A stretch of DNA of 64,000 nt from Candidatus Methylomirabilota bacterium (GTDB lineage: Bacteria; Methylomirabilota; Methylomirabilia; Methylomirabilales; Methylomirabilaceae), in contig JAGWQH010000082.1 of NCBI GenBank assembly GCA_028870115.1, positions 62,001 to 126,000 on the forward strand. Direction: 5' to 3'. This document shows, piece by piece, positions 2,993 to 41,945 of this stretch (within the stretch, counting starts at the first letter, position 1; every line of letters begins with the position of its first letter). Under the pieces are notes generated by a model. It saw only the letters and a list, made by a program, of their open reading frames with translations. It had not been told where the DNA came from and did not search any database. Position numbers and translations under genes: made by a program.

Positions 2993-3013
2993 AAATACGC
3001 GTTTTGGCGTATA
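2991..3013 (+). promoter_or_regulatory. Operator copy 3 (TACGC-N6-GCGTA)
   Basis: Same layout as the two copies before the first LuxR-type gene: arms TACGC and GCGTA around GTTTTG, preceded by GTAAA and followed by TA. It differs from copy 1 at only three positions. It ends 29 bases before the ATG at 3043. Because the element spans the TTG at 3004, that upstream in-frame start is unlikely to be used. Confidence 0.6.
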
Positions 3014-3042
3014 CCGCGGTTCTGACCAGCAGGAGCCAGGAG

Positions 3043-4179
3043 ATGGAACGGCTCAAGCAGCAGCAACTCAGGGCCTTTCTCGACTTCGTGCTGGGCTGTT
3101 ACGCCTGCCACGATCAGGAGGCGTTCGTCCGCTATCTCCTCCACGGGATCTCGATGCTGATCCCCGCGGAGAGTACGAGCTATGCTGAGATCAGCCTTGA
3201 GAGCGGGAAGCTGCTCGATGCCACCAGGGTAGAGCCTTCCCACGTCGAGTTCCCGGAGGCCCGGCAGATCTTCGAGCACTACTTCCACGAGAACCCCTTC
3301 GTCACCTATCGCCAGCGCACGGGAGACCGCAGTGCGATCAAAATCTCGGACTTCCTCACCCAACATCAATTCCACCGCCTTGGCCTGTACAACGAGCTCT
3401 TTCGACTGGTAGATAAGGACCATCAGATGGCTGTATCGTTAGCCACGCCGTCGCAGATCGAGATCCAGATCGGATTCGGTCGCAGCCGACGGGACTTCTC
3501 AGAGCGAGACCGACTCCTCCTCAACCTCGTTCGCCCGCACTTGGTCCAGGCGTATCAGAACGCGCAGGCGATTACGGAGATACAGAAGGAAACCGCGCTT
3601 CTGCGCCGAGCGATGGAGATGGGCAATCAGGGAGTGGTGGTCCTCGCCAAAGAGGGACGAATCCGACTAATGACCCGGCAAGCGCGAGCCTGGCTCACGG
3701 AGTATTTCGGTAGTCGCTCACAGTCGTCGGATTATCTGCCGGAGACGCTCAGGTCATGGATCACGCACCAGGAAACCCAATTGGCGCACGCCGACGACGC
3801 CCCGCCGTCACGAACACCGCTGGTGTTGGAGCGAGACGGAGCGCGCCTGGTGGTGCGACACCTGTGCGAGGCGGAGCAGTGTCTGCTGTTCCTGGAAGAG
3901 CGACAGACGACCGTCCTACCGGCCTCCTTGGAACCCTTAGGGCTCACACGGCGTAAAACCGAGGTGCTCCACTGGGTGGCGCAGGGCAAAACCAATGCAG
4001 AGATTGCAGCAATCCTCGGTCTGAGTCCACGAACGGTACAGACGCACCTGGAGCACATCTTCAAGAAACTCGGCGTCGAGACGCGCACGGCGGCCGCCAC
4101 CCTGGCCCTGGGCTGGCGCCCCGGGGCAGAGGCTGCCCAAGGGAAGAGTCCGGTCAAAGAAAACAGGTTGCTCGGGTGA
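3043..4179 (+). CDS. LuxR-type transcriptional regulator, paralogue 2
   Basis: A 378-residue paralogue of the regulator at 754 with the same plan: GAF-like sensor region (FLDFVLGCYACHDQEAFVRY), short PAS-like middle (GVVVLAKEGRIRLMT) and C-terminal LuxR helix-turn-helix (LTRRKTEVLHWVAQGKTN, EIAAILGLSPRTVQTHLEHI). The recognition helices of the two proteins differ at only a few positions, so they may read the same site. The C-terminus is about 17 residues longer. The ATG at 3043 is preferred because AGGAGCCAGGAG precedes it and because it lines up with the start of paralogue 1. The effector is unknown. The two genes look like an old tandem duplication, now separated by a gene on the other strand. 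Confidence 0.85.
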   Translation: MERLKQQQLRAFLDFVLGCYACHDQEAFVRYLLHGISMLIPAESTSYAEISLESGKLLDATRVEPSHVEFPEARQIFEHYFHENPFVTYRQRTGDRSAIKISDFLTQHQFHRLGLYNELFRLVDKDHQMAVSLATPSQIEIQIGFGRSRRDFSERDRLLLNLVRPHLVQAYQNAQAITEIQKETALLRRAMEMGNQGVVVLAKEGRIRLMTRQARAWLTEYFGSRSQSSDYLPETLRSWITHQETQLAHADDAPPSRTPLVLERDGARLVVRHLCEAEQCLLFLEERQTTVLPASLEPLGLTRRKTEVLHWVAQGKTNAEIAAILGLSPRTVQTHLEHIFKKLGVETRTAAATLALGWRPGAEAAQGKSPVKENRLLG

Positions 4180-7002: not shown

Positions 7003-8064
7003 ATGATTGTGGGAGCGCTACAGAAACTGGTCGAGCGAAGGGACCTCAGCCCTGATGAGGCCTTCATGACCATGGAAGAAATGATGTTGGGGAAGGCGTC
7101 CGACCCGCAGATCGCGGCCTTCCTGACGGCGCTCCGGCTCAAGGGCGAAACGGTGGCTGAGATCACCGGTTTTGCGAGGGCGATGCGGGAGCAGGTCTCC
7201 CGAATCAGGGTGCGCAGCCGGGTCGACGCTTCAGGTTCCGGGACTGACACCGGGAGACTGGTCGATACCTGCGGCACCGGGGGCGACGCCAGTCACACCT
7301 TTAACATCTCAACGGCGGCTGCCTTCGTAGTGGCTGGAGCGGGTGTCCAGGTAGCCAAGCATGGCAACCGCTCCGTGTCGAGTCTGTGCGGAAGCGCCGA
7401 CGTCATGGAGGCGCTGGGCGTGGATCTCACGCTGACGCCGGAGCAGGTGGGGGAGTGCATCGACGAAGTCGGCATCGGGTTTCTGTACGCGCCGCTGTTG
7501 CACCCGGCCATGCGGCACGTGATGACGGCTCGCCGGGACATACGGATCCGGACGGTATTCAATATCCTTGGCCCACTCACCAATCCCGCCCAAGCGCCGG
7601 CTCAGGTAGTGGGCGTGTATGATGCGTGCCTCACCGAACTGTTGGCGACAGCCCTGATCGATCTGGGATCGAAACGGGCGTTTGTCGTCTGTGGCCTGGA
7701 TGGGCTTGATGAGCTCTCACCAGCGGCGGAGAGCCGGGTCTCTGAGGTCAAAGATGGGCGCGTTCATACCTACATGCTTTCGCCGGAGGATTTCGGTCTC
7801 ACACGGGCTTGCCTCAGCGACTTGCAGGGTGGCGGTGCGGAGGAGAATGCGGAGACCATCAGGCGAATCCTGGATGGAGAGAAGGGGCCGAAACGCGACG
7901 TGGTGCTGATGAATGCTGCGCTGGCCATTATCGCGGGCGGCAAAACCCATGACTTCCGGGATGGCGCCGGACTGGCGGCTCGCTCGATCGATACGGGCGC
8001 CGCCATGGAGAAGCTTCGCGGCCTGGTGGAGTTCAGTGAGCGACATGGCCGGCAAGGTGTGTAG
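7003..8064 (+). CDS. trpD: Anthranilate phosphoribosyltransferase
   Basis: A 353-residue enzyme that joins anthranilate to phosphoribosyl pyrophosphate. Diagnostic motifs are DTCGTGGDASHTFNIST (pyrophosphate binding), KHGNRSVSSLCGSADVMEAL and TVFNILGPLTNPA. The N-terminal helical domain (SPDEAFMTMEEMMLGKASDP) is complete, and the length is normal. GAAGGAG lies about 14 bases before the ATG. It follows trpG by 20 bases, and a GC-rich stem-loop sits directly after its stop codon. Confidence 0.96.
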   Translation: MIVGALQKLVERRDLSPDEAFMTMEEMMLGKASDPQIAAFLTALRLKGETVAEITGFARAMREQVSRIRVRSRVDASGSGTDTGRLVDTCGTGGDASHTFNISTAAAFVVAGAGVQVAKHGNRSVSSLCGSADVMEALGVDLTLTPEQVGECIDEVGIGFLYAPLLHPAMRHVMTARRDIRIRTVFNILGPLTNPAQAPAQVVGVYDACLTELLATALIDLGSKRAFVVCGLDGLDELSPAAESRVSEVKDGRVHTYMLSPEDFGLTRACLSDLQGGGAEENAETIRRILDGEKGPKRDVVLMNAALAIIAGGKTHDFRDGAGLAARSIDTGAAMEKLRGLVEFSERHGRQGV

Positions 8065-24501: not shown

Positions 24502-25614
24502 ATGGGACGGCGGTGGTTGTGGCTGTGGAAGGCTCTCACGCTTATCCTACTCATTGCCGCAAACGCCCAGGCGGCCGGTGCTATAAAAGTTGGTGTGGCC
24601 GGACCACTGACGGGGGATCAAGGCGCTCTGGGACAGGAGCTGAAGAACGGCGCCATCATTGCCGCAGACGAGTGGAACGCCAAAGGGGGTCTCCTGGGAC
24701 AGAAGATTGAGATCGTCTGGGGTGACGATCAACACGATCCTAAGCAGGCCGTTGCGGTCGCCAATAAGTTTGTCAATGAAGGGGTCGTCGGGGTGATCGG
24801 CCATTTCAACAGCAGTTGCTCGATTCCGGCGTCTACTATCTATCGCGACGGCAAGGTTGTGCAGCTTACCCCTGCGTCGACCAATCCGCAATTCACTGAA
24901 CGCGGCCTGTGGAACGTCTTCCGCGTATGCGGCAGGGATGACCAGCAGGGCGGTGTGGCGGCCAACTTCATTGTGAAGAAGCTAAAGAAGGCGAAGGTCG
25001 CAGTCCTGCACGATAAGACCACATACGGACAAGGGCTGGCAGATGAAACGGTGAAGGCCCTGGAAAAGGCCAGGATCAAGCCTGTCTACTACGGGAGTAT
25101 TACGCAGGGAGAAAAAGACTACCGACCGGTTCTGACCGCTGTCAGACAGACCGATCCGGGAGTCCTCTTTTACGGCGGCATCTATCCGGAGGCCATCCTG
25201 ATCACGAAGCAGATGCGCGAACTGGGAATGAAAACGATCTTTATTAGTGGCGACGGCGTCTGGGCCAAGGAGTTCGTTGAGATTGCGGGTAAGGCTGCGG
25301 AGGGCGCCTTTATCACGTTCACCCCGGACCAAACAAAGATCAAGGAAGCCCAGGGAGTCATCCAGCGGCACAAAGAAAAGTTTGGCACCGCGGTGGGAGC
25401 CTACACCGTGTATAGCTATGTGGCCGCCGTGCTTCTCTTCGATGCGATTGCCGCGACTCAATCTACCGATGGCGTCAAGATCGCGGACTATATCAGGAAG
25501 ACGAAATGGAAAACCGCTCTCGGACCGATTCAGTTCGATAAAAAGGGTGACGTGCTGGTGTCGCCCTACGTGATCTGGGAGGTGAAGAACGGAAAGTTTG
25601 TGGAACTCCAGTAG
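24502..25614 (+). CDS. livK: Branched-chain amino-acid ABC transporter, binding protein 1
   Basis: A 370-residue periplasmic binding protein. Signal peptide LTLILLIAANAQA, then IKVGVAGPLTGDQGALGQEL, the standard start of type I Leu/Ile/Val-binding proteins; the two lobes and the late KTALGPIQFDKKGDV are present. GAGGAGGGAAG precedes the ATG. Substrate could be branched-chain or other amino acids or amides; sequence alone does not decide. A strong stem-loop separates it from livH, a common way to keep the binding protein in excess. Confidence 0.9.
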   Translation: MGRRWLWLWKALTLILLIAANAQAAGAIKVGVAGPLTGDQGALGQELKNGAIIAADEWNAKGGLLGQKIEIVWGDDQHDPKQAVAVANKFVNEGVVGVIGHFNSSCSIPASTIYRDGKVVQLTPASTNPQFTERGLWNVFRVCGRDDQQGGVAANFIVKKLKKAKVAVLHDKTTYGQGLADETVKALEKARIKPVYYGSITQGEKDYRPVLTAVRQTDPGVLFYGGIYPEAILITKQMRELGMKTIFISGDGVWAKEFVEIAGKAAEGAFITFTPDQTKIKEAQGVIQRHKEKFGTAVGAYTVYSYVAAVLLFDAIAATQSTDGVKIADYIRKTKWKTALGPIQFDKKGDVLVSPYVIWEVKNGKFVELQ

Positions 25615-25637
25615 GCGGAAAGGGTACTTGTGACGTA

Positions 25638-25673
25638 AAAGGGAGGGAAGGGAGCCATCTCTTCCCTCCCTTT
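25638..25673 (+). terminator. Stem-loop between livK and livH
   Basis: Perfect 13-base arms AAAGGGAGGGAAG (25638-25650) and CTTCCCTCCCTTT (25661-25673) around a 10-base loop, ending in TTT. It lies in the 72-base gap between binding protein and permease. It may act as a partial terminator or as a 3' stabiliser of the livK message. Confidence 0.6.
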
Positions 25674-25686
25674 GCGTTGAGGGGAC

Positions 25687-26589
25687 ATGCTGCTTCAACA
25701 GTTGGTGAACGGGTTAACGCTTGGTAGTGTCTATGCGCTGATCGCGCTGGGCTATACCATGGTCTACGGGATCATTGAGCTGATTAACTTCGCCCACGGC
25801 GAAATCTACATGTTGGGCGCCTACATTGGAATCATCACCTTCAGTCTCCTGACCACGCTTCATCTGACATCTCCGGATTCCGGCATCACCCTCCTCTGCA
25901 TGATGATCGCGGCGATTCTCTTCTGCGGCGCCTACGGCATCACCATTGAACGGTTGGCCTACAGGCCGCTGCGTAGCGCCCCGCGTCTGTCTCCGCTCAT
26001 CAGCGCTCTGGGCGTCTCGATCTTTCTCCAGAATTTCGTCATGCTGGCCCAGGGGCCCAGGGATAAGGGGTTCCCTGAACTGTTCATCCAGGGTGGAATC
26101 GACCTGCCGGGTGGCAGGATCAGCGCAATCCAGATCTTCATCATAGTCACCTCTGTCCTGATGATGTGCGGGCTTCACCTGTTGGTGCGCCGGACCAAGA
26201 TCGGTAAGGCGATGCGGGCAGCAGCCCAGGATAAGCAGATGGCCAGCCTAGTCGGTATCGATGTGAACCGAGTGATCAGTGTGACGTTCCTTATCGGTTC
26301 GGCGCTCGCGGCAGTGGCTGGCGTAATGGTCGGAATGTACTATGGTCTGATTAACTTCTACATCGGCTACATCGCCGGCATTAAGGCCTTTACCGCCGCT
26401 GTGCTGGGGGGGATCGGCAGCATTCCCGGCGCGATGCTGGGAGGAGTGCTGCTGGGTCTCATTGAGAGCCTGGGGGCGGGCTATATCTCCAGTGAGTACA
26501 AAGATGTGTTCGCGTTTGCTATCCTGATTCTTGTACTGATCTTTCGCCCCTCGGGCCTATTGGGTACGGACACATCAAAACGCGCCTAG
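25687..26589 (+). CDS. livH: Branched-chain amino-acid ABC permease LivH
   Basis: A 300-residue inner-membrane permease with about eight hydrophobic helices. It begins LLQQLVNGLTLGSVYALIAL and has the family segments ELINFAHGEIYMLGAY and the GGIGSIPGAMLGGVLLGLIE region that contacts the ATPase. Seven bases separate it from the fused permease-ATPase gene downstream. Confidence 0.94.
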   Translation: MLLQQLVNGLTLGSVYALIALGYTMVYGIIELINFAHGEIYMLGAYIGIITFSLLTTLHLTSPDSGITLLCMMIAAILFCGAYGITIERLAYRPLRSAPRLSPLISALGVSIFLQNFVMLAQGPRDKGFPELFIQGGIDLPGGRISAIQIFIIVTSVLMMCGLHLLVRRTKIGKAMRAAAQDKQMASLVGIDVNRVISVTFLIGSALAAVAGVMVGMYYGLINFYIGYIAGIKAFTAAVLGGIGSIPGAMLGGVLLGLIESLGAGYISSEYKDVFAFAILILVLIFRPSGLLGTDTSKRA

Positions 26590-26596
26590 GAACACC

Positions 26597-28663
26597 ATGC
26601 GAACCTTGTCGCATTCTCTTCCATTCTATCGCCGCCCTTTGGCGAAAATCATTCTAACCAGTCTGTGGCTGGGACTGCTGTCGCTGCCTCTCATGATAGA
26701 GTTGGACGCCCACTATTTTGGCCTGGGACGTCCCCTCATGGTTACCGGCGTTGTGGCGCTGCTCGGCCTCATGCAGTGGTTCGTTTCCCAATGGCGAAGA
26801 AAATCACCGGTGTGGATGGATCGTCTGGTGGAGGCCGGTGGGGCTACTGTTCGCAGCCTGACCCAGCGCATCAATCGTCGCCCGCTCTACATTCTGATGC
26901 TCGCCGCTGCGATTGTGATCCCCCTTGGTCTGAATCGGTATTACATCGATGTGTTGACCCAGGTGGGGATCTATGTGACGCTGGCGCTCGGACTCAACAT
27001 CGTCGTGGGCCTGGCGGGGCTGCTGAATCTCGGCTACATCGCGTTTTATGCCGTAGGAGCCTATGCGTACGGTCTGCTCGCAACCCGGGTTGGCTTCTCG
27101 TTCTGGGAGGTCTTGCCGTTGGGGGCGGTTCTGGCGGCCATCTTCGGCGTTGTACTCGGCTTCCCGGCCCTGCGTCTGCGGGGCGATTACCTGGCGATTG
27201 TCACGCTCGGGTTCGGTGAGATGATCCGGATCGTTCTGAACAATTGGGATAGCGTGACAGGCGGACCTAACGGGATTATCGGGATCGCACGCCCGAGTCT
27301 TTTCGGATTCACCTTTTCCCACCCGATCCACTACTACTACCTGATCCTTGCTGTCGTTCTGCTCACAATCTTCGCAGTCAATCGGCTCAATCAGTCGCGT
27401 CTTGGTCGCGCCTGGACCGCGATGCGCGATGACGAGATCGCCGCTGAGGCGATGGGGATCGACCTGGTCAAGACGAAGCTGCTCGCGTTCGGTCTTGGCG
27501 CGACGTGGGCGGGAGTTGCGGGTGTCTTCTTTGCGAGTAAGATGACATTCATCTCTCCTGAGAGCTTCACATTTTTTGAATCGGTCATCGTTCTCTGTAT
27601 GGTCGTGCTTGGCGGGATGGGAAGCATACCAGGAGTGATCCTTGGGGCCGCACTGCTGTTGATCCTGCCCGAGATAATGCGGCAGTTTGCGCTGTACCGC
27701 ATGTTGGTCTTTGGGGCGGCCATGGTTGGGATGATGGTGATTCGACCAAGGGGGCTGCTTACCGCGCGCCGACGGACGATCCCCATCGGGCATAAGGGGT
27801 TGTCTCGCGCCTCAGTGGCGAGCGGGCCTCAGGCCCATTCGGCGGACTTACGGCGGGTCGGTCCGACCCCACAACTGCCGAGTGATACGATCACGATCCT
27901 ACTTGAAACACGAAAGCTGTCGATAGATTTCGGCGGTCTCCGAGCACTTGATATGGTCGATCTCAGCGTGAAGGCGGGGGAAATTGTCAGCCTGATCGGC
28001 CCCAACGGGGCCGGTAAAACCACCTTTTTTAATTGTGTGACAGGCCTCTTCGCTCCATCGTCCGGAGAGATCCGCTATCGCGGTGAAAACCTGGTCGGCC
28101 TGAGGCCAAATCAGGTGGCCGCGAAGGGGGTGACCCGCACCTTTCAGAACATTCGGTTGTTCCACGACATGACGGTGCTCGAGAACGTTATGGTAGGGGG
28201 CCACTGTCGGATGCGGGCTGGAGTGATCGGCGCGATCATCCGACCGAAAGGCGTGATCAAAGAAGAGGAGGAGTTGGTGGCAAAAGGGTGTGACCTGCTG
28301 CGGTTCGTAGGCCTCGAGGAAAAAAGCGATCTATGGGCAAGCCAACTTCCATACGGCGACCAACGACGCCTTGAGATCGCGAGGGCGATGACAAGCGACC
28401 CGACCCTCTTACTCCTGGATGAGCCGGCCGCGGGGATGAACCCTCAGGAGACCAACGCCCTCATGGAGTTGATCCATGCAATTCGCGCCCGGGGCATTAC
28501 CGTTCTGCTCATCGAGCACCACATGAAGCTGGTGATGGGCATTTCGGAACGGGTAGTCGTTCTCGACCACGGGATCAAGATCGCCGAAGGCAGACCGGAA
28601 GAGATCAAGGCCGACCCCAGAGTGATCGGCGCCTATCTCGGGAAAGAGTCGGTACATGCTTAG
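26597..28663 (+). CDS. Fused LivM permease - LivG ATPase
   Basis: A 688-residue protein combining two subunits that are usually separate. Residues 1-390 are a LivM permease: two extra N-terminal helices, then LNIVVGLAGLLNLGYIAFYA and MVVLGGMGSIPGVILGAALL. A basic, repeat-like linker (about 391-430) leads to a complete LivG ATPase with Walker A GPNGAGKTT (468-476), the LivG-type signature LPYGDQRRLEIARA (584-597) and Walker B LLLLDEPAAGMNP (604-616). The frame is unbroken throughout. It overlaps livF by eight bases. Confidence 0.92.
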   Translation: MRTLSHSLPFYRRPLAKIILTSLWLGLLSLPLMIELDAHYFGLGRPLMVTGVVALLGLMQWFVSQWRRKSPVWMDRLVEAGGATVRSLTQRINRRPLYILMLAAAIVIPLGLNRYYIDVLTQVGIYVTLALGLNIVVGLAGLLNLGYIAFYAVGAYAYGLLATRVGFSFWEVLPLGAVLAAIFGVVLGFPALRLRGDYLAIVTLGFGEMIRIVLNNWDSVTGGPNGIIGIARPSLFGFTFSHPIHYYYLILAVVLLTIFAVNRLNQSRLGRAWTAMRDDEIAAEAMGIDLVKTKLLAFGLGATWAGVAGVFFASKMTFISPESFTFFESVIVLCMVVLGGMGSIPGVILGAALLLILPEIMRQFALYRMLVFGAAMVGMMVIRPRGLLTARRRTIPIGHKGLSRASVASGPQAHSADLRRVGPTPQLPSDTITILLETRKLSIDFGGLRALDMVDLSVKAGEIVSLIGPNGAGKTTFFNCVTGLFAPSSGEIRYRGENLVGLRPNQVAAKGVTRTFQNIRLFHDMTVLENVMVGGHCRMRAGVIGAIIRPKGVIKEEEELVAKGCDLLRFVGLEEKSDLWASQLPYGDQRRLEIARAMTSDPTLLLLDEPAAGMNPQETNALMELIHAIRARGITVLLIEHHMKLVMGISERVVVLDHGIKIAEGRPEEIKADPRVIGAYLGKESVHA

Positions 28664-29360
28664 CCTGCAAGAGGTACATGTCCATTACGGCGCCATCCAC
28701 GCGCTCAGGGGGATAAGTCTTGAGGTGAAGGAGGGTGAGATCGTTACACTGATCGGTGCCAACGGGGCCGGGAAGTCATCGACGTTAATGACGATTTCCG
28801 GAATCCTGAGACCAACTAACGGACGGATCATCTTCGAGGATGAGGATCTGACTCACCTGCCACCCCATGCCATCGTCGAGCGTGGCATCTCACAGGTCCC
28901 CGAGGGGCGGAGAATCTTTCCAACGCTGACCGTCCTGGAAAATCTGGAGATGGGCGCCTACACCCGCGCTGATAGCGCAGAGATCCGTCAGGACCTCGAT
29001 CGGGTATTTCAACTCTTCCCGCTGCTGAAAGACCGCCGATTGCAACCGGGCGGAACCCTCTCCGGCGGCGAACAGCAGATGTTGGCTATCGGTCGCGCCC
29101 TGATGGCGCGCCCACGGCTCTTGCTGCTGGATGAACCTTCGCTCGGACTGGCCCCCAAATTGGTAGAGACAATCTTCGAGGTGATTCGAGAGATTAATGC
29201 CCAATCGACAACCATCCTGCTGGTCGAGCAAAACGCGCACATGGCCCTGCGGATCGCGGCCAAAGGGTACGTCATGGAGGTCGGTCGGATCGTACTGAGC
29301 GATGAAGCTGAAAACCTTATGGCCAATGGTGAAGTTCGAAGCGCCTACCTTGGGGAGTAA
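28656..29360 (+). CDS. livF: Branched-chain amino-acid ABC transporter ATPase LivF
   Basis: A 234-residue ATPase with Walker A GANGAGKSS, signature LSGGEQQMLAIGRAL, Walker B LLLLDEPSLGLAP and the H-loop position replaced by LLVEQNAHMAL as usual for LivF. It should pair with the LivG half of the upstream fusion as the nucleotide-binding heterodimer. Its 3' end overlaps the next gene. Confidence 0.95.
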   Translation: MLSLQEVHVHYGAIHALRGISLEVKEGEIVTLIGANGAGKSSTLMTISGILRPTNGRIIFEDEDLTHLPPHAIVERGISQVPEGRRIFPTLTVLENLEMGAYTRADSAEIRQDLDRVFQLFPLLKDRRLQPGGTLSGGEQQMLAIGRALMARPRLLLLDEPSLGLAPKLVETIFEVIREINAQSTTILLVEQNAHMALRIAAKGYVMEVGRIVLSDEAENLMANGEVRSAYLGE

Positions 29361-30558
29361 TCGCCGGAAAAAGTCGGCTTGTTCTGTAGCCCGTATCGTC
29401 GTGGCCTTCCTGGCGCTCGCCTTGGCGTACATTCCGCAGACGTCAGCGGCGGGGGACGCACAGAGGGTTTCCGACATTACGATCGGGATCGTGGGTCCGA
29501 TGTCGGGCGACATGGCGCACCTGGGCCGCTATGTACGGGAGGCGGCGGCATTGGCTGTCGAGGAGTGGAACGAGAAGGGAGGTATCCAGGGGCATCGCAT
29601 TCAACTCCTACTGGAGGACGATCGTAACGATCCCTTGGAGGCGGTTGCTGCAGCCAAACGATTGGTGCAGGCAGGGGTCTGGGGTGTGATCGGCGACCTG
29701 ACGTCAGCCGCCTCGCTTCCGGCTTCAGCGATCTATCAGGCAGCCGGAATTCCTCAGATCACACCCTCAAGCACCGACCCGCGACTCACAGAGCAGGGGT
29801 TCCAGAGCCTCTTTCGTACGTGCGGTCGAGATGATCAGCAGGGACGGGTGGCGGCCGAGTTCGTCCTTGACAGGCTTCACCCTCGCCGGATAGTGATCCT
29901 GTACGATCGAACGGCTTACGGTCAGGCGCTTGCAGAGGCTTTCAAGCGGCGGATCGTACATGCGCTGCGCGGCCTTCGTGTGACCAGCATGGCGCTTTCG
30001 TCGGACAGGAAAGATCTTAACTCTGTGGTCGAACAGATCAAGGCGAAGGAGCCGGACCTGGTGTATTTCGGGGGGCTGTATCACGAGGGCGGTCTGCTGG
30101 CGAAAAGGCTCCGGGAGGAGGGTGTCCAGGCTACTCTGGTCAGTGGGGATGGGGTGTTCGGAACGGAGTTCGTCAATCTGGCCGGAGAGGCTGCGGCGGC
30201 AGGGACCTATCTGACCTTCGCTCCCGACCCTATGCTGCTGCCAACTGCTGAGGCCGCCATCAAGCGCTTTCACGCTCGGTACAGCGCCATCGGCCCATAT
30301 TCGCTGTACGCGTACGACGCGGCAGGCGCGCTTTTTACGGCCATTGCCGATGCCAGGCCAACAACTCCGTCGCGGCCTCATTTACTTCGGGTCTCGCAGG
30401 TCTTGCATCGGATGACCTACATGGGCGCTCTCGGCCGGCTCCGGTGGGACCATAAGGGCGATCTGGTCAAGCCACCCTATGTAATCTATCAGGTCAAGAA
30501 AGGGGGTAGCTTTCAAGGATGGTTCGAACAGGTGACCGATCGAACGCTCAAGCGATAA
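29326..30558 (+). CDS. Branched-chain amino-acid ABC transporter, binding protein 2
   Basis: About 410 residues: a signal peptide (ARIVVAFLALALAYIPQTSA) then ITIGIVGPMSGDMAHLGRYV. It is a divergent relative of the binding protein at 24502, sharing the QQGRVAAEFV/QQGGVAANFI stretch and a similar late segment (YMGALGRLRWDHKGDL). Both binding proteins presumably serve one transporter with different ligands. The start is uncertain (ATG at 29302 or 29326), and all options lie within livF. Confidence 0.85.
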   Translation: MVKFEAPTLGSNRRKKSACSVARIVVAFLALALAYIPQTSAAGDAQRVSDITIGIVGPMSGDMAHLGRYVREAAALAVEEWNEKGGIQGHRIQLLLEDDRNDPLEAVAAAKRLVQAGVWGVIGDLTSAASLPASAIYQAAGIPQITPSSTDPRLTEQGFQSLFRTCGRDDQQGRVAAEFVLDRLHPRRIVILYDRTAYGQALAEAFKRRIVHALRGLRVTSMALSSDRKDLNSVVEQIKAKEPDLVYFGGLYHEGGLLAKRLREEGVQATLVSGDGVFGTEFVNLAGEAAAAGTYLTFAPDPMLLPTAEAAIKRFHARYSAIGPYSLYAYDAAGALFTAIADARPTTPSRPHLLRVSQVLHRMTYMGALGRLRWDHKGDLVKPPYVIYQVKKGGSFQGWFEQVTDRTLKR

Positions 30559-36208: not shown

Positions 36209-37522
36209 ATGCCTAAACTGAAGTTGATCACCTTTGGCTGTCAGGCGAACGATCTTGATTCAGAGCGGATCACCGGCCTGCTGCTTCGCGAGGGGTATAC
36301 CCTTACCGAACGGGAGGAGGAGGCCGACCTGATTCTTCTCAATACCTGCGCGATCCGCGAGAAGGCGGAGCATAAGGTCTACAGCCGCCTCGGGTCTTTT
36401 CAGGTATTGAAACGGGAGCGCGCCGAACTGAAGATCGGCATCTGCGGATGTGTCGCGCAGCAGGAAGGGGAGGCGCTCCTTAATCGTTTTCCATACCTGG
36501 ACTTCGTTGTCGGTCCAGGACAGCTCACAGCCATTCCATCGTTGCTTCAGGCCGGGACGGCGAGAGGCGTTGCGACCGCAAGAACACCAGGTTACTCCTA
36601 CCCCGTAAACGCGCCGGTTCAGCGTCAAAGCAATATCAGGGCCTGGGTCAGCATCATGGAGGGGTGCGATCACTTCTGTACCTTTTGCGTAGTTCCTTTC
36701 ACTCGTGGCCGTGAGCGCAGTCGGCCTCCGCAGGAGATCGTGGAGGAGATCCGCGGGCTCAAGCGCCAGGGGTATCGCGAGGTCACGCTCCTGGGTCAGA
36801 CCGTCAACTCCTACGGGAGGAAACTCACGCCTCCGGTCAGCTTTGTGGAACTGCTCCGTCAGATCGATCAGCTCGTAGACGGTCAGATGCGGGTTCGATT
36901 TACGAGTCCGCATCCTCTCGATGTGACCGATGAGCTGGCGGCGGCAATCGCCGAACTGCCGAGTCTGTGCGAACAGATCCATCTGCCGGTTCAATCGGGC
37001 TCTGATCGGATCCTGCATCAAATGAAGCGCGGCCATACTCGGGATGAGTACCTGGAAAAGATCGCACTGCTGCGGGCCAGGACACCAGAGATCGCTATCA
37101 CTACGGACATTATTGTCGGGTTTCCCGGTGAAACGGAGGAGGATTTTCAGGCGACTCTGAATCTGATGCAGAAGGTTGGGTTCGATGGCGCCTTCATGTT
37201 CAAGTATTCGCCGAGACCCCACACAGAGGCGGAACGGATGCCTGATCAGCTCTCTGAGGAGGTGAAAGCCCGTTGGTTGGAGCAGGCGCTTGCGCTCATG
37301 AACCGACTGTCGCTGGAGCGCAACCGCGCGTACCTCGGCCGAACAGTCGAGGTGTTGGTGAATCGTGAAGATGCCAAGGGGAATACCGATCGCCATACCG
37401 GTCGGACACGGCAGAATAAGATTGTCCACTTTGGAGGTGGAGGGGTAGCGGACGGGAGCGTCGTGTCAGTGGCGATTACAGGGGCTACCCCCCTGTACCT
37501 GCAAGGCGGAATGGTGTGCTGA
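36209..37522 (+). CDS. miaB: tRNA-2-methylthio-N6-dimethylallyladenosine synthase
   Basis: A 437-residue radical SAM methylthiotransferase that modifies A37 of tRNAs. The N-terminal domain carries three cluster cysteines (FGCQANDLDSE, LNTCAIREKAE, CGCVAQQ); the radical SAM site is GCDHFCTFCVVP; a TRAM domain ends the protein. The ATG at 36209 matches the usual N-terminus. The partner MiaA is also in the window (53781). It overlaps hpt by a few bases. Confidence 0.95.
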   Translation: MPKLKLITFGCQANDLDSERITGLLLREGYTLTEREEEADLILLNTCAIREKAEHKVYSRLGSFQVLKRERAELKIGICGCVAQQEGEALLNRFPYLDFVVGPGQLTAIPSLLQAGTARGVATARTPGYSYPVNAPVQRQSNIRAWVSIMEGCDHFCTFCVVPFTRGRERSRPPQEIVEEIRGLKRQGYREVTLLGQTVNSYGRKLTPPVSFVELLRQIDQLVDGQMRVRFTSPHPLDVTDELAAAIAELPSLCEQIHLPVQSGSDRILHQMKRGHTRDEYLEKIALLRARTPEIAITTDIIVGFPGETEEDFQATLNLMQKVGFDGAFMFKYSPRPHTEAERMPDQLSEEVKARWLEQALALMNRLSLERNRAYLGRTVEVLVNREDAKGNTDRHTGRTRQNKIVHFGGGGVADGSVVSVAITGATPLYLQGGMVC

Positions 37523-38079
37523 CACATCGGGTTCTGTTCGATGAGCAGACGATTGCAGCGCGGGTGGATGAGCTGGCGTACGCGATCGCCCAGGACCTGC
37601 CGGAGCCGACGCCGGTCCTGATCGGTCTGCTCACCGGCGCGTTTATCTTCCTCGCCGACCTGGTACGGGCGCTGGGACGCTTGGAGATCGAGCCCCAGGT
37701 TGACCTGATGGCCGTCTCACACTACGGGCCGTTGGTGGCCTCCAGTGGCCTGGTACAGCTCCACAAGGACAGCGCATTGGATCTCGACGGACGGGTGGTG
37801 TTGCTTGTCGATGATATCCTGGATTCGGGACGGACGCTCAGCATGGTCCGCGCGCACCTGGCCGCCCGGAACCCACGCTGGCTGCGCACCTGTGTCCTCC
37901 TGGACAAACCGAGTCGACGACAGGTGGCGATCAACGCCGACTACGTCGGCTTTGAGGTACCCGACGCCTGGATGATCGGCTACGGCCTCGACGCGTATGG
38001 GCAGGGACGGGGGCTTCCGTACGTGGCCGTACTTGAGACAGTAGACCCCGCCAGGATGGAAGTCGTACGCCAAACGTGA
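37516..38079 (+). CDS. hpt: Hypoxanthine phosphoribosyltransferase
   Basis: A 187-residue purine salvage enzyme. The PRPP-binding loop is VVLLVDDILDSGRTLS; PVLIGLLTGAFIFLADLVRA and the late YVGFEVPDAWMIGYGLDA bind pyrophosphate and purine. It starts at a GTG that overlaps the miaB stop. Guanine may also be a substrate, as in most bacterial HPRTs. Confidence 0.93.
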   Translation: MLTHRVLFDEQTIAARVDELAYAIAQDLPEPTPVLIGLLTGAFIFLADLVRALGRLEIEPQVDLMAVSHYGPLVASSGLVQLHKDSALDLDGRVVLLVDDILDSGRTLSMVRAHLAARNPRWLRTCVLLDKPSRRQVAINADYVGFEVPDAWMIGYGLDAYGQGRGLPYVAVLETVDPARMEVVRQT

Positions 38080-38870
38080 TGACGAGGGACACACGCCGAC
38101 ACCGTCTGGTCAAAGAGGATCTGGTCTACGGGCCGCTGCATTCCCGACGGCTCGGCCGCTCGCTGGGCGTGAATCTGCTTGGGGCCGGCGCGAAGCTCTG
38201 TTCCTTCAACTGTCGTTATTGTCAGTGCGGCTGGACAGTGCATCCGATCCTGAAGCCCACCGAGCAGAGCGCGGAGTTGCCTTCAGCTCAAAAGGTTACC
38301 GATGCCTTGGAGACGAAGCTTCAGCAACTGCGCCGTGAGCAGATCCCCATCGACGTCATCACTTTCTCAGGCAATGGCGAGCCGACGCTCCATCCGGAGT
38401 TGGAGGCGATTGTCAAGGCCGCCGCTGACCTGCGGGACCTCTATACGCCCTACGCCAAGCTCGCCATTCTTTCGAATAGCTCTACTGTGCATCGGCCGGA
38501 GGTGCGCGCCGCCCTGCTGAGGATCGATCTAAAGTTGATGAAGTTGGATGCCGGAAGCGAGACACTCGTGCGTCGGATCAATCTGCCGGCCCCCGGGTGG
38601 GACTTCGGTACGATGCTCCAGGGGTTAGCCGAGCTCGACGGCGTACTACTGCAAACGATGTTCGTGTGGGGGAGAGTGGCGAATACGGCCCCTTTAGCGA
38701 TTCGCGAATGGTCCGACCGGGTGGGTGAGATTTGCCCGCGTGGTGTTCATATCTATACGCTCGACCGGGTCCCAGCCGACCCCGGCTTGACGCCGGTTTC
38801 CAGGGGGGTACTCGAGTCGATTGCCGGCTACGCGCGACGGCGCGCCCATGTTCCAATTGAGGTCTACTGA
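38079..38870 (+). CDS. Radical SAM protein of unknown function
   Basis: A 263-residue protein (GTG at 38076 or ATG at 38079, both overlapping the hpt stop). YGPLHSRRLGRSLGVNLLG leads into CSFNCRYCQCG, a CX3CX2C radical SAM cluster site; ITFSGNGEPTLHPE is the GGE-like SAM motif. It resembles the COG0731-type radical SAM proteins often annotated without substrate. No second cluster motif is obvious. Its end overlaps the VKOR-fusion gene by 23 bases, so the two may be coupled. Confidence 0.85.
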   Translation: MTRDTRRHRLVKEDLVYGPLHSRRLGRSLGVNLLGAGAKLCSFNCRYCQCGWTVHPILKPTEQSAELPSAQKVTDALETKLQQLRREQIPIDVITFSGNGEPTLHPELEAIVKAAADLRDLYTPYAKLAILSNSSTVHRPEVRAALLRIDLKLMKLDAGSETLVRRINLPAPGWDFGTMLQGLAELDGVLLQTMFVWGRVANTAPLAIREWSDRVGEICPRGVHIYTLDRVPADPGLTPVSRGVLESIAGYARRRAHVPIEVY

Positions 38871-40500
38871 GGCAGTCGGTAGCCGTCGAACGTTGCGGCG
38901 GCTGCTGGCGCTCCCTGTACTCGCCCTGTTAGGCCTGGGCGACTCAAGCTATCTGCTCTGGCAGCATCGCGCGGACACTGCGGCCTTCTGTCTTGCAGGG
39001 GGATGCGATGTTGTCAATCAAAGCGCATACTCTGAGATCAGAGGAATCCCTCTTGCCGCCTTCGGTATCGGGGGGTATCTGCTGCTACTTACTCTCTCGA
39101 TCGTGGCCGTAACGCTTCTCAGTCGGCGGGTGCTGGGGATGATCGTCGCAATCGCCGGAATCGGCGTCGCGGTGTCGGCATGGCTGATCTATCTGCAGGT
39201 CGCAGTGATTGAATCGATCTGTTCGTGGTGCGTCCTTTCGGCCTTCACGATGACGTCGCTCTTTAGTCTGAGCCTGAGTGCGTTTCTCACGATACGACCT
39301 CTAGCGCTGTCGGAACGGGCGATCCCACCACGAACAATGCAAGTTCCAACAGGGGCTTTGCGACGCGCCTACAGGTTTCCGCTGATGGCGGCGGGGATGC
39401 TCGCCCTGCTCGCTGCATTGCTGGGAGGACTCTACCGTTTAGGTTGGGACTGGTCAATCGTCCCTGCGACGTTGCCGGATGTACATGGTCCTCTGATGGT
39501 GTCCGGATTCTTAGGGACGCTTATCGGGTTGGAACGGGCGGTGGCAATGGGGAAGTGGTGGTCTGCTGTTGGACCGCTGTGTACCGGGGCGGGCGCCGTG
39601 GCGCTGATTACCGGTGTGCCCGGTACAGTAGGTCCGGCATTGATGACCATGGGCAGCCTCATCTTGGTCGTCACGTTCGCTCGCCTCATATGGGAGCAGC
39701 CGGCCCTGTTTACAATCACGATGGGGCTTGGGGCGCTCGTGTGGCTGGGAGGCAACATCCTCTGGCTTAACGGATGGTCGATTGCCAGCGTAGTGAGTTG
39801 GTGGGCCGCCTTCCTGATCCTGACCATTGCCGGCGAACGACTGGAGTTGAGCCGCTTTCTCCCTCTTGCGCCACGACATCGGCTCTCATTCCTCGCCGCG
39901 CTGGGGTTGTTTGTGGCCGGACTCATTCCCGTCGGGATTGCGTTCGACATCGGGGCGCGCCTGAGCGGGTTGGGGCTGATTGCGCTGAGTGTCTGGTTAT
40001 TGCGGCACGATATGGCGCGACATGCGGTGCAAAAAACAGGACTCCACCGATTTGTGGCGCTCAGCCTGCTTTCAGGCTACGTGTGGCTGGCAGTAGCCGG
40101 GATGCTCACATTAATTTTTGGCGGAGTGGCGGCTCACCATCATGCAACTTTGCACGCTATGCACGGACCTGACATTCAGAACGGCTATGATGCGACTCTA
40201 CACGCCATATTTGTGGGCTTTGTGTTTTCTATGATTATCGGGCACGCCCCGATCATCTTTCCGTCTGTGCTGGGAATTCCTTTGCCTTTTCGCCCCGCCT
40301 TCTACAGCCATCTCATCCTGCTTCATCTGTCGCTTGTGCTGCGAATAGTGGGGGATGTGGCGATGTGGCAGCCCGGAAGACTGGCGGGCGGACTGTTCAA
40401 TGTGGTAGCCGTACTACTCTTTCTGGGCAACATGGCGTTGTCTGCTGTGTCTGGAAAACGATCAGGCTCGTTGGTAGATGCTGGGGGGCAAGCAGGTTGA
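38848..40500 (+). CDS. VKOR domain fused to polytopic membrane domain
   Basis: About 550 residues from the ATG at 38848. The first 150 form a vitamin K epoxide reductase domain: loop cysteines C48 and C53 (CLAGGCDVVNQS), YSEIRGIPLAAFG and the active pair C125-C128 (CSWC) in a four-helix bundle that passes electrons from thiols to quinone. No thioredoxin domain is attached. The remaining 375 residues have about ten helices with LPDVHGPLMVSGFLGTLIGL and ATLHAIFVGFVFSMIIGHAP, whose histidines suggest metal or haem binding; this part recalls NnrS-like proteins, tentatively. A role in disulfide formation linked to the respiratory chain is plausible. Confidence 0.75.
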   Translation: MFQLRSTEAVGSRRTLRRLLALPVLALLGLGDSSYLLWQHRADTAAFCLAGGCDVVNQSAYSEIRGIPLAAFGIGGYLLLLTLSIVAVTLLSRRVLGMIVAIAGIGVAVSAWLIYLQVAVIESICSWCVLSAFTMTSLFSLSLSAFLTIRPLALSERAIPPRTMQVPTGALRRAYRFPLMAAGMLALLAALLGGLYRLGWDWSIVPATLPDVHGPLMVSGFLGTLIGLERAVAMGKWWSAVGPLCTGAGAVALITGVPGTVGPALMTMGSLILVVTFARLIWEQPALFTITMGLGALVWLGGNILWLNGWSIASVVSWWAAFLILTIAGERLELSRFLPLAPRHRLSFLAALGLFVAGLIPVGIAFDIGARLSGLGLIALSVWLLRHDMARHAVQKTGLHRFVALSLLSGYVWLAVAGMLTLIFGGVAAHHHATLHAMHGPDIQNGYDATLHAIFVGFVFSMIIGHAPIIFPSVLGIPLPFRPAFYSHLILLHLSLVLRIVGDVAMWQPGRLAGGLFNVVAVLLFLGNMALSAVSGKRSGSLVDAGGQAG

Positions 40501-40520
40501 GGTCAGAAAAGGGATATCCC

Positions 40521-41945
40521 ATGACGTTGCACCGATCCGAAAGATTGCGGATCGATCTTGATCCGAGAGAAGGGGCGAACGTGGTTCCGGAGCAGGATAC
40601 CGAACCGATAGCAAAAGGCATGCCGTCTCGCGACGTCATCCGAATGGCGCGACTTCCGATCCACTTCTTCATGTCGGCTATTATCCTCTTCGGAGTGGGT
40701 GTCGCGTCGGTGCCTTGGGTGGTAGGCGATCTCGTGGAGTTCTTCTATCAGCCTCGGATCCTGGCCGTGACCCATACCTTTACGCTGGGATGGATCAGCT
40801 CCGCCATCATGGGGGTTATGTACCGGCTCGTTCCAGCCATAACGAAACGGCCCTTGCGCTTTCCGAGATTAGCGCGCTGGCAGTTCGGGCTCTTCATCTT
40901 CAGCGCGACAGGTCTCATGGCGCACATGCTGATTGGAGCATGGCCACCCACTTGGATGGCGGCGGCGGCCATTGTGCTCAGCGTGATCTTCTTTGCGATG
41001 AACATGTGGCACTGCCTTGGTCCTGCTTGGCACAAGAGTGCGGCCGAAACCGGCATGTGCATATCGATCGGATTTCTGTTGCTTGCGGCAACGCTCGGCT
41101 TTCTCCTGGCGTTCGATAAGGCTCGCGGGTTTCTTCCCGGCAACGTTCTCACTAACCTGGCCGGTCACGCGCATCTTGCGGCGCTCGGATGGGTGAGCCT
41201 GACCATCTGTTCCGTCTCCTATCGGATGGCTCCGGCGTTTCTCTTGTCCGAACTGACGCTACCGCGTGTGGCAGTCTGGCAAGTGTACGGCCTTGCCGTC
41301 GGCGTCGCCGGATTAGCGATGGCGCTTCTTGGCTGGATTCCCGGGATAACCGTCTGGAGTGTGGTGATCCTGTTGGCTCTGCTTACCTATGTCGGCATAC
41401 TTCAGACGCTTATGCGTCATCGGCGGATACCGATCGATTGGACGATGCGGCACGCGCTGGCCGGCATCGTGTGTTTGCTGCTTGCCGTTGGACTCGGATT
41501 CTCGCTGCTGTGGATTGATCCGGATAGCGCCCTTGGCAATAGGATTGCGGGAGCGTACGGAGTGCTGGGGCTGCTCGGGTGGGTGACGAACCTCATTATC
41601 GGGATGTCTTTCAAGCTCTTTCCAGGATTCGTCGTTGGTGTGCGTGACCGCAGAGGATGGCCCAGGCTGGCAATCGCAGAGCTGTCCCTCCAGAGCTGCC
41701 GGCCGCTCGTCTTTGTCTTACTGAACGTCGGCGTCCTGACGCTGGCTGGTGGCCTGATCACGGCCCAGGTGGCGATCGCTCGGCTGGGTGCCATGGTCCT
41801 CGCACTGGGAGGCCTGATTTACGTGGCGGTGATGGGACGGACCCTGAGCTATGCCTATCGTGCTGCTGTTTCTCCGGCTGCAGGTGACCCGCTCCATCTC
41901 GTTTCCGATGACTCGTCGAGCCGACACGACTCTACATCTCAGTAG
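40521..41945 (+). CDS. Polytopic membrane protein with conserved histidines (NnrS/oxidase-like)
   Basis: A 474-residue protein with about twelve hydrophobic helices after a 40-residue polar start. Membrane histidines occur in LAVTHTFTLGWISSAIMG and LAGHAHLAALGWVSLTIC, patterns shared with haem-copper oxidase subunit I relatives and NnrS-like proteins; a third segment is IIGMSFKLFPGFVVG. Catalytic-core ligands of true oxidases cannot be assigned with confidence. AAAGGG precedes the ATG at 40521. It follows the VKOR fusion by 20 bases and probably works with it. Confidence 0.7.
   Translation: MTLHRSERLRIDLDPREGANVVPEQDTEPIAKGMPSRDVIRMARLPIHFFMSAIILFGVGVASVPWVVGDLVEFFYQPRILAVTHTFTLGWISSAIMGVMYRLVPAITKRPLRFPRLARWQFGLFIFSATGLMAHMLIGAWPPTWMAAAAIVLSVIFFAMNMWHCLGPAWHKSAAETGMCISIGFLLLAATLGFLLAFDKARGFLPGNVLTNLAGHAHLAALGWVSLTICSVSYRMAPAFLLSELTLPRVAVWQVYGLAVGVAGLAMALLGWIPGITVWSVVILLALLTYVGILQTLMRHRRIPIDWTMRHALAGIVCLLLAVGLGFSLLWIDPDSALGNRIAGAYGVLGLLGWVTNLIIGMSFKLFPGFVVGVRDRRGWPRLAIAELSLQSCRPLVFVLLNVGVLTLAGGLITAQVAIARLGAMVLALGGLIYVAVMGRTLSYAYRAAVSPAAGDPLHLVSDDSSSRHDSTSQ

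Follow-up and report, generated by a model that had tools for sequence, protein, structure and literature searches.

A VKOR domain fused to a predicted haem-copper-oxidase-fold domain in Candidatus Methylomirabilis

The window (the whole stretch of 64,000 nucleotides that was analysed) lies on contig C82 of a 2.8-Mb genome, G000. Because the closest named relatives among the matches listed are Candidatus Methylomirabilis (L043 and L044), we assign the window to the NC10 methane oxidizers. On its forward strand, genes for a phosphoribosyltransferase (37516..38079; PF00156, E 1.9e-25) and a radical-SAM protein (38076..38870; PF04055, E 1.1e-9) are followed by two frames encoding membrane proteins, which we call P1 (38848..40500; 550 aa) and P2 (40521..41945; 474 aa). 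P1 is a single open frame that joins a VKOR domain to a second half, hereafter CTD, with a predicted 12-helix oxidase fold. P2 is a 12-helix protein resembling CcoN and NnrS, as judged by sub-threshold profile matches, AlphaFold2 and Foldseek predictions, and conservation.

P1 starts at ATG 38848, or alternatively at TTG 38821, and its stop codon ends at 40500. The start overlaps the 3' end of the radical-SAM gene by 23 bases, and the two genes are possibly co-transcribed. In L023-L026, too, the fused gene is preceded by a radical-SAM gene, and, by eye, L028 and L029 have a phosphoribosyltransferase-like frame close to their unfused pair. The preliminary description of this DNA had placed the fusion and its neighbour at 38079-41945. 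This interval does span P1 and P2, but position 38079 falls within the separate radical-SAM gene. That description was accurate in putting a second membrane protein, with the motifs THTFTLGW and GHAHLAALGW, 20 bases downstream: the spacing from the P1 stop to the P2 start is exactly 20 bases. Elsewhere in the window are two similar frames (754-1839 and 3004-4179) around a PilT/TRAM-like gene, with an apparent LuxR-type DNA-binding region at their ends, and what looks like an operon for a branched-chain amino acid ABC transporter (24502-30558), which encodes two substrate-binding proteins and a 688-aa fusion of permease and ATPase.

Twelve genomes carry the fused gene as an uninterrupted frame, with 71-80% identity (over the CTD or the whole protein) between the window sequence and those of the other 11, and both halves of P1 are under purifying selection. 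P1 is therefore a genuine single gene, as the preliminary description had supposed, and a frameshift, chimera or assembly artefact is excluded on the same grounds.

The VKOR domain (residues 1-148; 38848..39291), with four predicted helices, belongs to PF07884, which matches residues 22-142 with E 7.9e-22 and a score of 78.3 bits, the cut-off being 27.5. Its best solved relative is the Synechococcus VKOR 4nv6 (E 5.7e-10). Foldseek aligned the domain with 4nv5, 4nv2 and 4nv6 at probability 1.00 and 28-31% identity, but with E values of 0.27-0.75, and the pLDDT of this part of the P1 model is mostly 40-86. One cysteine pair, C48/C53 (CLAGGC; 38989..39006), is in the VKOR loop, which by homology is periplasmic, and a CxxC, C125-C128 (CSWC; 39220..39231), is at the start of VKOR helix 4. 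All 12 fused homologues have the CxxC at the corresponding site, and those that were read in the alignment also keep the loop pair. With both cysteine motifs in place and dN/dS well below 1 (0.22-0.34 in this half), the earlier characterization of the VKOR as intact stands, and a decayed VKOR is excluded.

In its four-helix core, loop cysteine pair and CxxC, this domain is like that of the Synechococcus VKOR-thioredoxin protein (4nv2/4nv5/4nv6, 3kp9; PF07884), with which P1 presumably has quinone-linked disulfide formation in common, by homology. However, the partner domain in P1 is a predicted 12-helix oxidase-fold domain, not a thioredoxin. Searches of P1 with Pfam and NCBIfam gave no Trx or DSBA match, and the DsbA-like partners are encoded by separate genes.

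A linker of low model confidence (residues 149-172; 39292..39363; pLDDT about 50 over residues 151-170) leads to the CTD (residues 173-550; 39364..40497). The linker evolves fast, with dN/dS of 0.36-0.98, and that of G007 has an insertion of 37 alignment columns compared with the window sequence; dN/dS of the CTD is 0.12-0.20. The AlphaFold2 model of P1 has pLDDT 84.5 and pTM 0.71, the placement of the VKOR relative to the CTD being uncertain. When this model was searched with Foldseek, the CTD matched CcoN and NorB at probability 1.00, with a best E value of 2.2e-3 and TM scores of 0.44-0.58 (0.51-0.58 by target). Together with conservation, these models indicate that the CTD has the fold of subunit I of the haem-copper oxidases, as in cbb3 CcoN and in NorB. 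The preliminary description had counted about ten membrane helices beyond the VKOR; further helices are indeed present, and 12 are predicted.

For P2, AlphaFold2 predicts twelve helices (pLDDT 83, pTM 0.83), and Foldseek identifies the 12-helix oxidase fold, with matches to cbb3 (E 3.6e-6) and cNOR (E about 4e-6) at probability 1.00 and TM about 0.6. Structure prediction, proposed earlier as a check, thus yields the haem-copper-oxidase fold for the CTD and P2 alike. P2 also has matches below cut-off to COX1 (PF00115; E 2.5e-5, 23.8 vs 34.8 bits), ccoN (E 3.6e-7) and NnrS (PF05940; E 2e-4, 21.3 vs 28 bits), and sub-threshold NnrS matches come from P2 in most members of the genus. The same genome has a P2 paralogue on contig C33 (L042:8049-9817) that is about 35% identical and adjoins a MIP18/FeS_assembly_P gene; a P-type-ATPase-like frame lies about 3 kb from this paralogue.

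The CTD, like P2, is below every Pfam and NCBIfam cut-off; it has no match to PF00115 or PF05940, so by these models it is not a member of the NnrS or COX1 families. Profile alignment of the CTD with an oxidase of the same genus gave no match, and that with P2 gave only a local match of one unit (22%). Invariant in 57 aligned members of the CTD family are H213 (start of helix 2), H452 (near the start of helix 10), H466, E229-R230 and E330-R331, and H488 is nearly so. In P2, H85 (helix 2), H135 (helix 3) and H216 (helix 6) are invariant, and H218 (helix 6) nearly is. Neither protein has the full canonical oxidase set of histidines, that is, a low-spin pair, a high-spin ligand and three CuB ligands: in the CTD, the conserved histidines are H213, H452, H466 and H488, and core helix 10 of P2 has none. 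Paired histidines had been reported previously for the fusion protein, and one such segment does occur as HHHATLHAMH (residues 430-439; 40135..40164), in a loop between CTD helices 9 and 10. However, the histidines that are conserved throughout the family are single, and this loop is restricted to the fused clade, which rules out the pair as a general metal site of the CTD family. Based on the helix count of the model, we infer that the loop faces the periplasm.

In true oxidases, the low-spin haem is held between helices II and X on the periplasmic side. VKOR proteins have a cytoplasmic N terminus, and if that of P1 is cytoplasmic like the others, then H213 and H452 would be on the periplasmic side. 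The predicted fold and these conserved histidines lead us to expect that the CTD probably binds haem.

These data also bear on whether P1 and P2 form a functioning quinol-dependent NO or O2 reductase. Although the CTD and P2 have the oxidase fold in common, several P2 histidines align with CcoN helices VI-X (by phmmer) and quinol is the VKOR product, we consider such an activity highly improbable, given that the CTD has no equivalent of the CuB histidine pair, that helix 10 of P2 is devoid of histidine and that neither protein reaches the COX1 or ccoN cut-off. The two proteins also differ from CcoN and NorB in that no typical CcoO/CcoP or NorC partner adjoins P1 or P2 in the window.

The fusion is carried by 12 of 15 Methylomirabilis genomes, and two of the three without it are only 80-81% complete. 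A family search of GTDB species genomes with the CTD returned at least 548 confirmed matches, and the best 80 of these were kept. They come from Chloroflexota, Nitrospirota, Nitrospinota, Acidobacteriota, Planctomycetota, Rokubacteria and others, and none of these 80 outside Methylomirabilis is a VKOR-CTD fusion. In a tree of 30 CTD members, a single, fully supported clade unites the fused forms, whereas the unfused sequences from Methylomirabilis (G002, G006 and G011) are placed outside it. The tree indicates that the fusion arose once, within Methylomirabilis, and that the histidine-rich loop appeared in the same lineage. A single fused clade and a loop restricted to that clade imply that one event joined a VKOR to a pre-existing CTD-P2 pair.

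Such a history could also have left two halves that are functionally separate, with the VKOR fused into its downstream neighbour, both keeping their old jobs, and nothing gained but co-expression and a fixed stoichiometry. VKOR and CTD each occur alone elsewhere, and the single origin of the fusion and its fast-evolving linker, with the insertion in G007, agree with this explanation. Nonetheless, we regard it as somewhat unlikely, in view of the retention of the fusion in all 12 sampled descendant genomes with both halves under purifying selection, the gain of the histidine-rich loop in the same clade and the fact that the fused copy is the only VKOR, no stand-alone copy having escaped.

Indeed, 12 Methylomirabilis genomes have exactly one VKOR, which is always the fused copy, and the remaining three of the 15, which are the unfused ones, have none. 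DsbB was found in none of the 15 genomes by a search whose control recovers E. coli and B. subtilis. Because each fused genome has one VKOR, always P1, and no DsbB, P1 appears by homology to be the sole VKOR/DsbB-type thiol oxidase found in these genomes. Thioredoxin_4/DsbA-like proteins are present in 13 of the 15 (L169:1459-2559 encodes an example), and one DsbA-like protein was read as having a CPFC motif and a fused SurA-like N terminus.

To characterize the surroundings of the CTD family, we compared 204 frames located no more than 1.5 kb from 61 CTD genes outside the class with 100 control frames from the same loci that lie beyond 3.5 kb. Families near the CTD include COX1 (15 frames), MIP18-type FeS_assembly_P (15), Cupin_2 (11) and DUF2249 (8), none of which is among the listed families of the 100 control frames. 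Pooling COX1, FeS_assembly_P and DUF2249, and assuming one of each in the control, gives a Fisher p of about 6e-5. By itself, DUF2249 shows no significant enrichment over the control (p 0.28). Sequence clustering identifies 19 loci that have a DUF2249-like frame on the same strand, in most cases no more than 0.9 kb upstream of the CTD, and the family identity was confirmed for L114. Other neighbours include a NirK above its curated cut-off 0.8 kb upstream of the CTD (L105), an Rrf2 protein that resembles NsrR but scores below its cut-off (L099), and CopD, cupredoxin and multicopper families. Some neighbours are unrelated, such as TatC, threonine dehydrogenase and an AAA ATPase. In Rokubacteria-type genomes, a multihaem c-type cytochrome with many CxxCH motifs (L033:8003-9742) adjoins an unfused CTD; by eye, it resembles a hydroxylamine oxidoreductase, and similar frames lie beside the CTD in L032 and L038.

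The copper and iron-sulfur neighbours (MIP18-type, CopD, cupredoxin and multicopper), like the potentially metal-binding histidine-rich loop, could mean that the CTD and P2 help to assemble haem-copper enzymes or copper nitrite reductase, or deliver metal to them, with the VKOR keeping the cysteines of the assembly pathway oxidized. However, a 12-helix oxidase fold with histidines in core helices resembles a haem protein and not a known chaperone, and no cytochrome oxidase assembly gene recurs beside the CTD family in the neighbourhoods examined. We therefore judge this role decidedly unlikely.

Within the genus, the fusion tracks the denitrification genes, a profile that had been proposed earlier for comparison. 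All 12 fused Methylomirabilis genomes encode the cd1 nitrite reductase NirS and none of the 3 unfused ones does, counting only Cytochrom_D1 matches with E below 1e-80 (those with E above about 1e-15 are taken to be beta-propeller noise). Oxidases of the qNOR/NOD type are likewise present in the 12 fused genomes and were not detected in the 3 unfused ones; L197 encodes a NorB_cytochrome_c-like protein together with COX1. Since the fusion, NirS and NOR/NOD are on one branch, this co-occurrence amounts to one evolutionary event. In the f7 family, nitrite reductase was found in 5 of 13 CTD-positive versus 4 of 44 CTD-negative genomes (p 0.022, ignoring kinship).

NnrS (PF05940) is a haem-copper membrane protein of NO-responsive regulons (PMC1274295, PMC8175989). 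It has been assigned to the NsrR, NnrR, DNR and NorR regulons, and COG4309-norB to a like regulon (PMC1274295). Several features suggest that our proteins may resemble it: the C-terminal unit of the CTD aligns with the NnrS of L153 (hhalign 63%, E 7e-5), P2 has its sub-threshold matches, and CTD relatives have NO-type neighbourhoods. Fusion to a VKOR is absent from NnrS as described (PMC1274295, PMC8175989). Evidence against an NnrS-like reading is that the CTD matches no NnrS model and that most canonical ligands are missing. The NnrS of L153 (L153:1123-2913, in G001) has an ScdA_N (RIC-type) domain at its N terminus and DUF1858 at its C terminus. It sets a precedent in the same genus for joining repair or redox modules to an oxidase-fold, NO-related membrane protein, but differs from P1 in having other accessory domains and PF05940 proper.

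The preliminary description had suggested that the pair handles nitric oxide or quinol. Of these, the neighbourhoods and the co-occurrence within the genus, itself a single event, point to nitric oxide, and it seems rather likely that the CTD and P2 function in NO response or handling. These observations hint at a link between disulfide formation and the handling of NO in Methylomirabilis, which produces NO and converts it to O2 by dismutation. The more specific proposal that P1 combines the sole VKOR/DsbB-type thiol oxidase with an NnrS-like oxidase-fold module, and works with P2 in an NO-rich periplasm, is one we hold to be evenly balanced.

In such a scheme, C48/C53 and then C125/C128 would re-oxidize DsbA-like CPFC proteins and pass the electrons to quinone. 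This step is very probable, considering the VKOR homology, the four conserved cysteines, the presence of DsbA-like proteins, and the lack of DsbB or another VKOR. The CTD would bind one haem or more close to the periplasmic face. The simplest site would be between H213 and H452, which are predicted to be in the counterparts of those helices that bear the low-spin haem ligands in true oxidases. The CTD and P2 would be part of the machinery of nitric oxide response or handling, as suggested by neighbourhoods across phyla and by co-occurrence with NirS and NOR/NOD. The fusion would then keep disulfide formation running where NirS releases nitric oxide, with NO cleared or sensed beside reactive thiols and quinone, and VKOR quinol as a possible electron source. 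Electrons from disulfide formation normally drain to the general quinone pool. Direct electron transfer between the VKOR and CTD halves, in line with the direct wiring that the preliminary description had suggested, is conceivable but unlikely. It is very doubtful that thiol electrons pass by way of VKOR quinone to a CTD haem, with P2, as a thiol-driven NO or O2 reductase coupling disulfide formation to NO removal.

A set of CTD loci in Chloroflexota have two tandem genes of about 140 codons, each sized for four helices, after the CTD gene (before it in L093). Examples are L069:7102-7533 and 7535-7945, and others are in L071, L084, L091, L093, L103, L106, L111, L113, L116, L117 and L119. Each product resembles about one-third of subunit I of a haem-copper oxidase and contains an oxidase-like motif with a single invariant histidine. 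These proteins match part of the COX1 profile below cut-off and align with P2 at 90-92% probability. In L069, the order is DUF2249, CTD, arc A and arc B, with almost no intergenic spacing. P2 looks like three such one-third units in one chain.

The arrangement of P1 and P2 is real and conserved, and as far as the open-access literature that was searched shows, it is undescribed. The preliminary description knew of no such system, and we likewise found no Pfam or NCBIfam family covering the full fused protein and no account of a VKOR-oxidase-fold arrangement in that open-access literature. The building blocks, VKOR and oxidase-fold NnrS-like proteins, are known, and it is their combination that appears to be new. 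Furthermore, the CTD represents a widespread family that has no Pfam or NCBIfam model and is found in gene neighbourhoods of the nitrogen-oxide type. The Chloroflexota proteins that resemble one-third of an oxidase are relevant to the origin of the threefold-symmetric oxidase fold and may be a more general discovery than the fusion. In methane-oxidizing, NO-dismutating bacteria, a clade whose only VKOR/DsbB-type enzyme is tied to a predicted oxidase-fold protein makes it a testable idea that oxidative folding may be shielded from, or driven by, NO chemistry.
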